Positions 11,592-54,697 of a DNA stretch of 64,000 bases are shown piece by piece. The translations under genes and the position numbers were made by a program. The stretch's first letter is position 1, and each line of letters opens with the position of its first letter. The notes under the pieces were generated by a model. That model did not search any database. It saw only the letters and a program-made list of their open reading frames with translations, and was not told the origin of the DNA. The DNA is from Deltaproteobacteria bacterium (GTDB taxonomy: Bacteria; Desulfobacterota; Desulfarculia; Adiutricales; Adiutricaceae): the NCBI GenBank assembly GCA_031263485.1, contig JAISFS010000334.1, positions 1 through 64,000 of the forward strand. The letters are read 5' to 3'.

Positions 11592-11676
11592 CTGCAGGCA
11601 TGAAAATGAAGAACTGCAGGCATGAAAATGAAGAACTGCAGGTATGAAAATGAAGACTGCAGGCATGAAAATCAAG
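11592..11676. repeat. Four tandem copies of a 22-bp unit
   Basis: Units begin at 11592, 11614, 11636 and 11657 with CTGCAGG(C/T)ATGAAAATG; the third is 21 bp and the last is partial. The array runs straight into the left target duplication of the element at 11676. Confidence 0.85.
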
Positions 11677-11850
11677 ATTCCACTGCAAAAACCCCATCCC
11701 TCACCTCCTGGCAGTCATTTGAGGGCCGAGTATCTGGGTAAAGGGTGCGCAGATGTACGGTGGTTTAAGGCTTTAGCGCAAGGGTGCCAATGCGATGGCC
11801 ACATAGCGTTCCGCTTTCCGGCCGAGGGGGAGGGGTTTTGCAGTGTAATC
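11676..11850 (-). mobile_element. MITE family 2, copy 1 (175 bp)
   Basis: The left end is GATTCCACTGCAAAAACCC; the right end, GGGGTTTTGCAGTGTAATC, is its near inverse. AATCAA flanks both sides (11670-11675 and 11851-11856), a perfect 6-bp target duplication. Its reverse complement matches the two copies at 50588-50946 through most of its length, including GGCGGAACGC-like and CACCCTTGCGCT segments. No coding capacity. Confidence 0.82.
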
Positions 11851-11902
11851 AATCAAGGCCTAATGACATGATTATTATGAAATGAAAAAACTAGAAGACA
11901 TG

Positions 11903-45034: not shown

Positions 45035-49513
<4,479 letters not shown>

Positions 49514-49606: not shown

Positions 49607-49857
49607 CCGGCGGCTTCAGGCCGGTCGCCGCGGCTTCCCGGCACGCCCGAAGCTCCCGGCACGCCCGAAGCGCCGGTCCAGGAAACAGGAAACCTTCGCC
49701 GGAAGGCCCCTGCGGGGAAGAAGGGGGCCTACGGATGTCTTCCCGCGATTTCCAGTGGAAAAACATGCCTGCGGGGGGTAATATCCTGTCGAGGGCGTCT
49801 GGGGGCCAGCGACCGCCGCAGGCGAAGGCGGCGCTCGGTCCGATTAGGAGGCGAGAT

Positions 49858-50340
49858 ATGGGACGGGTCTTGAACATGCGGGCCGCCGGGCGAAGCCTGA
49901 CCGCGGCTCCCGGCAGGGCTTCGGTATTCGCGGCGGCCCTGATCATTCTCGCCGCGGCCTTCCTCCTGGCCTCGACGGACGCCGCGGCCGATACCAAGGA
50001 TACCTGCCGGAAGACCTCCCGCGGGGACGTGACCTGCACCGGCAAGGACGGGGACAAGCGTACGCGGACCGACTGCGAGAGGAACCCCCGAGGCTACAAC
50101 TGCACCAGGCGCACCGCCGACGGGGAGAGGACGCGTTCCCGCTGCCTCAAGACCTCCACGGGCCAGCTGGACTGCACGTCGGGCACGGGCCGGGACAGGA
50201 CCCGGACCGTCTGCAACGAGAACAGCGGTGGCGACGTCGAATGCCGCACCAGGGGCACCTCCGGCTCCAGGACGGACACCAGTTGCCAGACGGACAGCAG
50301 AGGCAGGACGGTCTGCAAGGGCAAGGACAGGCGGCGTTAG
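49858..50340 (+). CDS. Secreted cysteine-repeat protein
   Basis: The ATG at 49858 has AGGAG 7 bp upstream. The 160-residue product has a signal-like N-terminus (hydrophobic at about 22-40, then STDAAADT). The mature part is five tandem units of about 22 residues with ten cysteines spaced C-x(8-9)-C-x(12-13): CRKTSRGDVTC, CERNPRGYNC, CLKTSTGQLDC, CNENSGGDVEC, CQTDSRGRTVC, linked by basic G-x-RTRT-type segments. Each pair probably forms a disulfide in an exported, very basic protein. I do not recognise the family. The membrane protein at 51040 shares the C-x9-C unit. Confidence 0.72.
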   Translation: MGRVLNMRAAGRSLTAAPGRASVFAAALIILAAAFLLASTDAAADTKDTCRKTSRGDVTCTGKDGDKRTRTDCERNPRGYNCTRRTADGERTRSRCLKTSTGQLDCTSGTGRDRTRTVCNENSGGDVECRTRGTSGSRTDTSCQTDSRGRTVCKGKDRRR

Positions 50341-50587
50341 GCGGCGTATGGGCGAAGCGGCGGGACATGCGGCAAGGAGCCCGGCGCGTGCCGGACAAAG
50401 ATCCGGGATCGGTCGCGTGACCGGGTTAGCGCTCCTTGCCCCCGCGTTCCACGCGGCGCTTTCGCTACGCGCTCCGGATGCCCTGGCCGAGGGCTGGCAC
50501 TATCTCTGGCGCCTGATATCCCCCGTAGCTTGCAGCGGGGATATGAGGCGCGTTCAGCCCTGAGTTTCGATGTGTTTTCCGATAATC
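50341..50587. other. Short gap before the family 2 elements
   Basis: No gene recognised between the cysteine-repeat gene and the element at 50588. Confidence 0.4.
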
Positions 50588-50765
50588 GATTCCACTGCAA
50601 AAACCCTCCCCCTCGACCGAGAGGCGGAACGCTTTGTGGCCATCGCGTTGGCGCACCCTTGCGCTTAAGCCTTTAACCATCGCCATTCTGGCGCACCATT
50701 TACCCAGCATTCTGCCTTCAAATTGCTACCTGGAGGTGATGGTGGGGGTTTTTTGCAGTGGAATC
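50588..50765 (+). mobile_element. MITE family 2, copy 2 (178 bp)
   Basis: Termini GATTCCACTGCAAAAACCC and GTTTTTTGCAGTGGAATC are inverted repeats. Flanks are ATAATC (50582-50587) and ATAATT (50766-50771), a 6-bp duplication with one difference. The interior matches the next copy closely. No coding capacity. Confidence 0.85.
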
Positions 50766-50771
50766 ATAATT

Positions 50772-50946
50772 GATTCCACTGCAAAAACCCTCCCCCTCGA
50801 CAGAAAGGCGGAACGCTTTGTGTCCATCGTATTGGCACCCTTGCGCTTAAGCCTTTGACCACCGCCATTCTTGCGCACCATGTACCCAGCATTCTGCCCT
50901 CAAAGTGCTACCTGGAGGTGAGGGTGGGGGTTTTTGCAGTGGAATT
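50772..50946 (+). mobile_element. MITE family 2, copy 3 (175 bp)
   Basis: The same termini, with the right end mutated to GGAATT. ATAATT flanks both sides (50766-50771, shared with the previous copy, and 50947-50952). The head-to-tail arrangement with a shared flank suggests either tandem duplication or a second insertion at the same target. Confidence 0.85.
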
Positions 50947-51039
50947 ATAATTCAGGTTTCTTCGCCGAATGCGGCGGCTCCGCCGCCGAAGGCGAAGGCT
51001 TGCCCGCTAGCGGAGATGGTGCGCGGAACGTGAAAAAAG

Positions 51040-51483
51040 ATGGCCCGGACGGCGGACATGGCCGCTGAAGATGCCGTTCCGTCCGCAGGTCAGGGCGAAG
51101 GAATGCATGAAATGGATGCGCGTCCCGAAAATTCGAGGCAGGACGGCCCGCCCGTCAAGCAGGAAGCGACCCCCTATGCCGCGCCGCACTTCGGGCACTC
51201 CTGGAAGCCCGCTCTCATAGCGGTCCTGGTCGCGGGACTTGCCGTGGCGGCGTTTATCATCGGCGCCTGGTACCACAAACAGCAGTTCGTCTGTGTCATG
51301 ACCGCCTCGGGCACGGTCGTCTGCGGCCAGAGCTCCGGCCCGGCGGGCGGAGCCGCCGGCGCCTCGTTCGTCCAGCCGCAGGCCGAAAGCTACAGGGAAG
51401 GCCGCAGAAAAGTCACGGAGACCAGATGCCACAACGACGAGCAGGGCGTTCAGATCTGCCGCACCACTGAATACTCCGAATGA
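51040..51483 (+). CDS. Single-pass membrane protein with paired-cysteine external domain
   Basis: A 147-residue protein. Residues 1-63 are hydrophilic; a membrane helix follows (about 64-86, ALIAVLVAGLAVAAFIIGAWY). The C-terminal side has CVMTASGTVVC and CHNDEQGVQIC, each C-x9-C with a central Gly, like the units of the protein at 49858. The orientation with the cysteines outside is inferred from that similarity. The start could also be the ATG at 51058. Function unknown. Confidence 0.65.
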   Translation: MARTADMAAEDAVPSAGQGEGMHEMDARPENSRQDGPPVKQEATPYAAPHFGHSWKPALIAVLVAGLAVAAFIIGAWYHKQQFVCVMTASGTVVCGQSSGPAGGAAGASFVQPQAESYREGRRKVTETRCHNDEQGVQICRTTEYSE

Positions 51484-52426: not shown

Positions 52427-54697
52427 ATGGCGAGATTAGCCCGTATAGCCCTAATTATGCTTCTCTTTTTGCTCGCGCTCCGGCCCGGGGCCGCCCTGGC
52501 CCAGGACTACGTGGTTCAGGTGAGTTCCCTTTCCACCCTGGAGGCCGCCCAGACGGAGGCCCAGAGGCTCCTGGGCCAGGGGGTGCCCAGCTTCCAGAGG
52601 TCGGAGGAGATCCCGGAACGCGGCATCGTGCATCGGGTCTACTTGGGGCCTTTCTCCTCCCGCGCCGAGGCCCAGGCGGCCGCCGAGGCGCTCAAGACGG
52701 CTGGCGTCGTGAAGGACTATATCCTGCGCACCGATGGCGGCACCACAGGCACCCCGGCCGGTCCCGCCGCCTCCGCCCCGGCCGTTGCGCCGCCGCAGGG
52801 CGGCACGGACTCCGGGCCTGCGGAGCCTTTCGACCCGGAGGCCGCCTCCGGGCCGCCTCCGGAAGCCTTCGACCCTGAGACGCCCGTCCTGCAGGCCCCT
52901 GCAGCCGCGACGCCGCAGGTTCCCCAGGCCCAGGTGCCCGGAGGCGCCTACGGCCCGGCTCCGACGCTGGGACCTGGAGGCGAGGCCTGGGCCCCGCCTC
53001 TGCCTCCCCAGGCGCCTGTCCAGCAGCCCGCCGCAGACGATGCCTGGGGCGGACCGCCCGCAGTCCCCGGAACAGTCGGCGGATCCGCTCCGCCCAGGGC
53101 CGTGGCGCCTGGCGAGACCGTCTACTGGACCGAGGGCGGGGGAGACGCCGCGGCCGCCGCGGCCGAAGGCTGGCCGCCCCCGCCGCCCCAGGCCCCCGCC
53201 GCCGTGCCTCCCGTCGGCCAGGCTCCAGCCGCCGTGCCTCCCGTCGGCCTGGCGCCAGCCGCCGTGCCTCCCGTCGGCCAGGCGCCAGCCGCCGAAGGCT
53301 GGCCGCCACCGCCCCCCCGGGCCCCGGCTACCCAACAGCCTTCCGCCGAGGGCTGGCCGCCTCCGCCACCCCAGGCTCCGGCGCCCAAGCCGGACGATTG
53401 GGGTCAGGCGCCCGCCGTTCCGGTTCCTCCTTCCGCACCCGGCGCGGTTCCACCCGTCGCGATCGCCCCACCAGCGGCACCTCCGACAGCGGTCGCCTCT
53501 TCGGCTACGCCTCCTAACACGGTCGTCCTTCCGGCGGAGCCTCCGGTTTCGGCACCCGCCGCTGCCGTTCCGGGCGCGGTTCCCCCCGTCGCGGCCGTAC
53601 CGGCGGCCGTCATGACCGGCTCCCCGCAACCCGATGCCTGGGACGGCAAGGCCAACTCGTTTACGGCCTTGGTCGATCTTTCCTCCAGCATGCTCTGGCT
53701 GTCCCCCTGCCGGGGGGGACTGGTCAAGGCCGAGGCCGAGAGCGCGCTTCTCCGCAAGATAAGCCAGCGTCTCCCGAACCGTCCCTACATAGCGGCGCTG
53801 AGGGTGTTCGGCTACCAGCAGGCCTGGCGCGAGGCCGACTTCACGACGCTTTACTACGGCCCCACGGCCTACGAGTCGGACGGATTCGACCGGGCGGTGG
53901 CGAGGCTCGCCCCGGCCAACGCCGTGTCCCCATTCGGGGTGGCGCTCAGGGCCACGGCCGAGGAACTCGCCGCCTTGCCCTCACCCCGGGCGGTACTGAT
54001 GTTCTCCGACTTCGAGGTGACCTCAGATCCGGGCGATCCGCCCCAGGAGAGCGGACGGCTCCGCGGCCGCTTCGGGGGAGACACGCGTGTCTACGCCTTT
54101 TTCGTCACAAAGGACCGCAAGGCCAAGACGCTTGCCGCCAACGTCGCCGCCTCGGGAGGGGGGCAAAGCTTCGACGTGTGTGCTATGCTTGGTGACGAGG
54201 CCGCCTTCGAAGCCATGATGGACGAGATTTTCGGACCCAAGGAGGAGCCTCCCTGCGCGGATTCGGACGGGGACGGGGTCTGCGACGTCCAGGACCAGTG
54301 CCCCTCCACCCCGAAGGGGGCCCCGGTGGACAGCCGGGGATGCTGGATCGCGGCCTATTCGCAGTTCTTCGACTTCGACAAGGCCGTCGTGAAGAGCGCC
54401 TTTTTGCCCAGGCTCCAGTATGCCGCCGAAATCATCAGGAACAACCCCCAGATAGGCGAGATCATCATCGCTGGCCATACGGACGACAAGGGGACGGACT
54501 CCTACAACATGGATCTGGGCCGCCGCAGGGCGCAGGCCGTCATGGACGTCCTGGTCAAAAACGGCGCCCCCGCCGAGAGGATGAAGGTGGAGTCCTTCGG
54601 GAAGACCAGGCCGGTGGCGGAGAACACCACCGAGGAGGGTCGGGCCCGGAACCGGCGGGTGGAGTTCCACGTCGGGGATGTCCCTCCGGCCGCTTAG
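52427..54697 (+). CDS. Multidomain envelope protein: SPOR, VWA-like and OmpA domains
   Basis: A 756-residue exported protein. Residues 1-26 are a signal peptide (GAALA then QDY). A SPOR domain follows (about 27-105, YVVQVSSLSTLEAAQTEAQR and YLGPFSSRAEAQ), which binds denuded septal glycan. A 300-residue Pro/Ala linker repeats EGWPPPPPQAPA and VPPVGQAPAA. A VWA-like module begins NSFTALVDLSSSM (about 405). DSDGDGVCDVQDQCPSTPKG near 612 is a calcium-binding thrombospondin-3-like repeat. The C-terminal OmpA domain (FDFDKAVVKS, IAGHTDDKGTDSYNMDLGRRR) binds peptidoglycan. It probably spans from outer membrane or periplasm to the wall. The combination is unusual, though each part is common. Confidence 0.85.
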   Translation: MARLARIALIMLLFLLALRPGAALAQDYVVQVSSLSTLEAAQTEAQRLLGQGVPSFQRSEEIPERGIVHRVYLGPFSSRAEAQAAAEALKTAGVVKDYILRTDGGTTGTPAGPAASAPAVAPPQGGTDSGPAEPFDPEAASGPPPEAFDPETPVLQAPAAATPQVPQAQVPGGAYGPAPTLGPGGEAWAPPLPPQAPVQQPAADDAWGGPPAVPGTVGGSAPPRAVAPGETVYWTEGGGDAAAAAAEGWPPPPPQAPAAVPPVGQAPAAVPPVGLAPAAVPPVGQAPAAEGWPPPPPRAPATQQPSAEGWPPPPPQAPAPKPDDWGQAPAVPVPPSAPGAVPPVAIAPPAAPPTAVASSATPPNTVVLPAEPPVSAPAAAVPGAVPPVAAVPAAVMTGSPQPDAWDGKANSFTALVDLSSSMLWLSPCRGGLVKAEAESALLRKISQRLPNRPYIAALRVFGYQQAWREADFTTLYYGPTAYESDGFDRAVARLAPANAVSPFGVALRATAEELAALPSPRAVLMFSDFEVTSDPGDPPQESGRLRGRFGGDTRVYAFFVTKDRKAKTLAANVAASGGGQSFDVCAMLGDEAAFEAMMDEIFGPKEEPPCADSDGDGVCDVQDQCPSTPKGAPVDSRGCWIAAYSQFFDFDKAVVKSAFLPRLQYAAEIIRNNPQIGEIIIAGHTDDKGTDSYNMDLGRRRAQAVMDVLVKNGAPAERMKVESFGKTRPVAENTTEEGRARNRRVEFHVGDVPPAA

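Follow-up and report, generated by a model that had tools for sequence, protein, structure and literature searches.

A tandem repeat of probable cysteine-paired beta-hairpins in a predicted exported protein of a termite-gut bacterium, with relatives on plasmids and in phages

Two genes behind rpoC

The window analysed here is the whole stretch of 64,000 nucleotides taken from a Deltaproteobacteria bacterium (GenBank assembly GCA_031263485.1, contig JAISFS010000334.1, positions 1 to 64,000). Two genes of interest lie in it between rpoC and a gene coding for a SPOR/OmpA-type protein (Table 1). The first encodes a putative secreted protein made of cysteine-paired repeats, and the second a single-pass membrane protein displaying two cysteine pairs. 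The SPOR/OmpA-type protein is also conserved in genome G003 and in the neighbouring genus. The stretch separating the two genes is occupied by two inverted-repeat elements in tandem, each about 178 nt long, as the original prediction had it when it placed two mobile elements there. These MITE-like elements, with inverted ends of 26 nt, are present in at least 42 full copies in the genome. A further copy was seen in the window at 11676-11853, and tandem pairs were seen at two places, between the two genes and at G000:C159:27414-27770.

Table 1. Features of the locus (positions in the window).
Feature	Position	Strand	Basis and remarks
rpoC	45035-49513		flanks the pair; named from sequence, without a profile run
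Ribosome-binding site AGGAGG, secreted gene	49846-49851	+	read directly; 6 nt before ATG
Secreted repeat protein, predicted disulfide hairpins	49858-50340	+	160 aa; ORF reading, G004 homologue, structure model
Predicted signal peptide, residues 1 to about 44	49858-49989	+	sequence; model helix 24-39
Unit 1, C50-C60, CRKTSRGDVTC	50005-50037	+	sequence; model strands 49-52, 58-64
Unit 2, C73-C82, CERNPRGYNC	50074-50103	+	shorter by one residue; sequence; model strands 67-76, 79-86
Unit 3, C96-C106, CLKTSTGQLDC	50143-50175	+	sequence; model strands 91-98, 104-110
Unit 4, C119-C129, CNENSGGDVEC	50212-50244	+	sequence; model strands 113-121, 127-132
Unit 5, C143-C153, CQTDSRGRTVC	50284-50316	+	sequence; model strands 138-145, 151-156
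First MITE-like copy, ending in 26-nt inverted repeats	50588-50766	.	incidental to the gene pair
Second MITE-like copy, tandem to the first	50772-50947	.	incidental to the gene pair
Single-pass membrane protein, 147 aa	51040-51483	+	start codon uncertain; conservation from near residue 54
Predicted transmembrane helix, residues 56-78	51205-51273	+	structure prediction
Proximal C-x5-G-x3-C, C85-C95, CVMTASGTVVC	51292-51324	+	pLDDT about 50; unlike the secreted unit beyond the skeleton
Distal C-x5-G-x3-C hairpin, C130-C140, CHNDEQGVQIC	51427-51459	+	pLDDT about 70-82; weakly like the secreted unit
Large Pro/Ala-rich protein, SPOR-like start, OmpA-like end	52427-54697		behind the pair; named from sequence, without a profile run

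Both genes look real, since they are conserved in sister species, with an amino-acid identity of about 48-56% each, and since their GC content by codon position is gene-like. For the secreted protein, the homologue found in G004 is 48% identical (E 1.3e-35). Its N-terminus has the layout of a signal peptide, a basic start followed by a hydrophobic stretch and then by some 116 mature residues, and cleavage would take place near the AAA/DTK junction. All ten cysteines fall in the mature part, at successive spacings of 10, 13, 9, 14, 10, 13, 10, 14 and 10, and a glycine stands at +6 from the first cysteine in 5 of the 5 units. Four units read C-x5-G-x3-C, and unit 2 reads C-x5-G-x2-C (that is, C-x8-C). 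When the mature part was shuffled 200,000 times, five inner spacings all equal to 9 or 10 were never obtained, and a glycine at +6 in all five units was obtained twice. The five regular units are not a chance product. Open reading frame, spacings and shuffles agree on the predicted exported protein as it was described at the outset, with five C-x(8,9)-C units and ten regular cysteines making up the whole mature part. With 29 K/R versus 16 D/E, this mature part is strongly basic, and large hydrophobic residues account for 7 of 114 positions (a fraction of 0.06).

Predicted fold and cysteine pairing

From the window sequence alone, AlphaFold predicted a 10-strand antiparallel beta-meander with one cysteine per strand, and pLDDT values of 83-91 over mature residues 51-150. 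The five models disagree with each other (mean pLDDT from 75 down to 50; pTM 0.54), so that the hairpins are to be trusted more than the overall shape.

The relatives described below bear on the pairing of the cysteines. Among their D-S-F-G-type hairpins, the cysteine pair is complete in 26 cases and wholly absent in 53, and a single cysteine is found in none. As the hairpins counted are repeats in related genes, and those of a single protein cannot be taken as independent events, this count is a strong indication and not a statistical proof. Relative to the aspartate of the turn, the pair occupies one of two registers, -3/+7 or -5/+9, the latter in several viral members and in G228, and the two registers share one common hairpin axis. 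Five loci (L042, L043, L044, L046 and L087) combine them, the first hairpin having its cysteines at -5/+9, two residues outward on both strands, and the last hairpin at -3/+7. Both registers being symmetric about one axis, they fit the requirement of a cross-strand bond. Unit 2 of the window protein, with its C-x8-C, falls out of register by one residue. In hairpins with a three-residue loop ending in glycine, cysteines placed three pairs past the closing pair would occupy a non-hydrogen-bonded site, a type favoured for cross-strand disulfides. From the paired presence or absence of the cysteines and from the shared axis of their registers, we infer the disulfides themselves, and each unit is most likely a disulfide-clasped beta-hairpin. 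That the exported chain as a whole is a meander of such hairpins appears highly probable to us.

Ten regularly spaced cysteines within a mature part of 116 residues could also belong to a metal-binding protein, either metallothionein-like or acting as a metal sink. However, the C-x2-C and C-x-C pairs are absent, relatives drop both cysteines of a unit and yet retain the hairpin, and the protein is predicted to be exported in an organism that possesses DsbB. Metal binding is therefore a very improbable explanation of the cysteines. DsbB was found in 7 of the 8 genomes searched, that of the window included, and VKOR was absent from all genomes of the same set.

We propose the following scheme for the clasped hairpins. 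The product of the gene at 49858 would be exported by Sec, and its mature chain would form a single long antiparallel beta-meander, in which each repeat unit is a hairpin whose tight turn ends in the invariant glycine. The two cysteines at the mouth of the hairpin would be joined by a cross-strand disulfide, which the Dsb system would form in the periplasm. With large hydrophobic residues at 6% of mature positions, the protein has little material for a core, and the disulfides probably replace the core as stabiliser. Taken as a whole, a Sec-exported, Dsb-oxidised ribbon of clasped hairpins with a passive role is the explanation we favour, with moderate confidence. The role itself is a more tentative matter. 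The likeliest, though at low confidence, is a passive one, that of a rigid ribbon, extracellular or lodged in the envelope, that binds or scaffolds something; its strongly basic mature part would make a polyanionic polymer, of the envelope or of the host, its likeliest partner.

The membrane neighbour and the question of a pair

It had been proposed that the membrane protein carries the same unit as the secreted one, and that the two form a receptor/ligand or assembly pair. The C/G/C skeleton is indeed identical in the two proteins, and shuffling the outer part of the membrane protein 200,000 times yielded two C-x5-G-x3-C segments in 4 cases. Beyond this skeleton, the likeness is weak and concerns the distal unit. 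A position-specific score computed without the C/G/C positions gave 9.6-11.3 bits for the distal unit in three species, and -2 to -6 for the proximal one, which is unlike the secreted units. The distal hairpin of the window scores 10.9 bits, a value reached with a P of 0.002 when random peptides are drawn with the composition of the membrane protein itself, but with a P of 0.06 when the composition of the secreted protein is used. Moreover, an HMM of the unit, built from 27 secreted units (those of the window protein and of its family-level relatives), gave the membrane protein a score that shuffled sequences reach as well. The claim of a shared unit thus stands for the skeleton and, weakly, for the distal hairpin, and fails for the proximal segment.

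A short secreted protein of G024 (L008 1297-1617) ends in KVTETKC-x9-C, the same end motif as that of the distal hairpin of the membrane protein (KVTETKCDLDENGVYVCVTREY). Together, the score of the distal unit, the hairpin model and this motif point to a tip hairpin in the membrane protein whose geometry matches that of the secreted unit, and this hairpin and the secreted repeat may be of common descent. One weak match of G052 to the membrane-protein profile, an ORF devoid of the motif, was rejected.

We compared the arrangement of the two genes among related genomes. In G004, the secreted gene follows rpoC and the membrane gene comes right after it, with no inserts in between; the genes do occur together outside the window, and the refuting case considered at first, two genes never found together elsewhere, does not apply. 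In G001, the secreted gene also lies behind rpoC, and the contig ends inside it. This gene contains at the contig end (L013 8061-8263) a 75-bp tandem repeat with 92% matches, which suggests that the number of units varies by duplication and that the assembly breaks there. In G003, the membrane gene is found about 140 nt behind rpoC, too little space for the secreted gene, and searches of that genome with the secreted protein and its profile found no copy elsewhere. Neither gene was seen behind rpoC in the neighbouring genus (G006 and G016). Conversely, a profile search found no membrane homologue in G006, G009, G012 and G015, all of which have the secreted repeat, and no motif-bearing membrane partner was seen at the loci of the other repeat genes. 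All these genomes are incomplete MAGs, in which single absences (G001, G002, G005) prove little.

These observations can be set against the idea of a secreted ligand with an anchored receptor, or of an assembly pair, in which the hairpins of the membrane protein would hold the exported ribbon at the inner membrane by strand addition. Adjacency behind rpoC in two species, the common skeleton and the distal score under the protein's own composition are in its favour. The dependence of that score on composition, the silence of the HMM, the membrane gene standing alone in G003 and the repeat standing alone in other genera, with no such partner at other loci, go against it. The two genes are neighbours in the window's species and in G004, and their co-occurrence is not obligate; we hold the pairing proposed to be unlikely. 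Quite improbable, too, is a wider proposal in which core-less beta-ribbons with one disulfide per hairpin are a scattered exported class and, in this genus, the ribbon docks through the matching hairpin onto the anchored partner encoded next to it. In the scheme of a passive exported ribbon, the membrane neighbour, with its similar distal hairpin, would play an accessory part in the inner membrane and would not be an obligate partner.

Relatives, and comparison with known repeats

A profile of the secreted proteins retrieved members from further genera of the bacterial family to which the window's species belongs, with six units in G009 (CSTDSFGVTRC), three in G012 and four in G015. Further members were found in G006, at a contig edge, and in G228, which belongs to another family of the phylum. 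Unit copies vary from 3 to 6 across G001, G004, G006, G009, G012 and G015. Next to the repeat gene of G015 lies a tandem pair of exported proteins identified from their sequences as cyclophilin-like prolyl isomerases (L030 1403-2584). At the scale of the phylum, one profile detected the secreted repeat in 3 of 395 genomes, and profile A5 had matches in 6 of 395, which include one clear member (G228) and three RHS proteins (G194, G225 and G433); as the searches score few candidates per genome, these counts are lower bounds.

Outside the phylum, small plasmids of Acinetobacter, E. coli, Enterobacter, Serratia, Yersinia and Klebsiella, as well as Pantoea, Enterobacter and Yersinia phages, were found by tblastn with the G009 protein to carry exported relatives. 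These relatives are annotated as hypothetical proteins, or unannotated. A search of a viral collection gave 13 matches, including 10 loci of this repeat type. No relatives came out of the viral scans with P0007 and P0011, and a DNA pattern for FGETVC gave chance matches only in viral contigs. Matches in a Rheinheimera phage, Calothrix and Lentilactobacillus (23-33% identity, many of them annotated as pentapeptide repeats) were considered compositional, and were not counted. The unit HMM finds plasmid and phage members P0003-P0006 with E between 1e-10 and 2e-6 (Z=1). The window protein (P0001) used alone as query gave no plasmid match, and its link to the plasmid and phage members is made via P0007 and P0011. 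The basic charge seen in the window protein is missing from P0008 and P0009. We define here a DSFGNT hairpin-repeat exported class, to which the window protein conforms in that a signal-peptide-like start is followed by hairpin units only; cysteines occurring only in pairs symmetric about the turn are found in the window units and in the family count.

Since small plasmids and phages carry exported relatives, and the distribution in the phylum is patchy, the gene could be a cargo of mobile elements that alters the host surface, for example to exclude other phages, and that was later domesticated in this lineage. Yet the gene is syntenic behind rpoC in three species of the genus, and is therefore chromosomal there, and in Pantoea phage Nafs113 the repeat gene is situated near the endolysin gene, in a run of DNA-metabolism genes. 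Such a history appears improbable. The paper on phage Nafs113 does not mention the repeat gene by ORF number.

As modelled, a termite-gut bacterium thus appears to export a small, very hydrophilic ribbon of disulfide-pinned beta-hairpins. Tandem beta-hairpin repeats are a known kind of structure, and the present repeat is absent from the libraries searched: the window protein matched nothing in Pfam, NCBIfam, PHROG or the PDB sequences, and up to eleven members compared with Pfam, NCBIfam and PHROGs gave sub-threshold or low-complexity matches only, with one exception given below. In the literature covered, no paper mentioning the repeat core was found. The original prediction, which knew of no family with this spacing, is therefore borne out for these libraries, but has to be amended in that relatives do exist in the bacterial family, on plasmids and in phages. 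A repeat missing from the curated libraries searched is yet present in several genera of one family and in plasmids and phages of well-studied bacteria. It also offers a natural series of one hairpin with and without its disulfide, and so a way to ask how a sheet almost devoid of hydrophobic residues stays folded, a question for which the small size of the protein allows a simple test.

The exception is the GETHR pentapeptide repeat (PF05671), for which P0008 passes the cut-off (27.9 versus 22.4) over one 23-residue stretch, and P0001 and the other members have no match. As regards the fold, Foldseek found no match at E ≤ 0.001 in PDB or BFVD. FABP-type up-and-down beta-barrels, also 10-strand antiparallel meanders, are the commonest group among the best matches, at a best E of 0.047 and a TM of at most 0.41; they differ from the repeat family, which has a variable number of units and no hydrophobic interior. 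MORN and similar hairpin repeats gave weak Foldseek matches among viral models. In MORN-type repeats, every unit, of 20-odd residues, contributes a hairpin to one common sheet; the window protein has no Pfam MORN match, and differs in being predicted as exported and cysteine-clasped. RHS/YD repeats (PF05593, TIGR01643) are likewise short hairpin-type repeats, with D-x-x-G-N turns, and they build large shells in very long proteins. P0001 does not match them, the nearest relative, P0006, reaches 19.8 bits for a cut-off of 22, and YD repeats are not known to carry cysteine pairs of the window type. The RHS proteins picked up by profile A5 show where this profile borders on the YD repeats.

The closest likeness is to the plasmid and phage proteins with RTDSFGNT repeats, such as Acinetobacter WP_216986683.1, WP_008324024.1 from an E. 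coli plasmid and UJH96000.1 from a Pantoea phage. Unlike the window protein, they have most of their inner units without cysteines, are near neutral or slightly acidic, and space their units by about 20 residues or closer, versus 23-25 in the window. Like the window protein, they are predicted as exported and consist of tandem hairpins, here with a D-S-F-G turn, and their terminal unit carries a C-x9-C in the same register as the units of the window.
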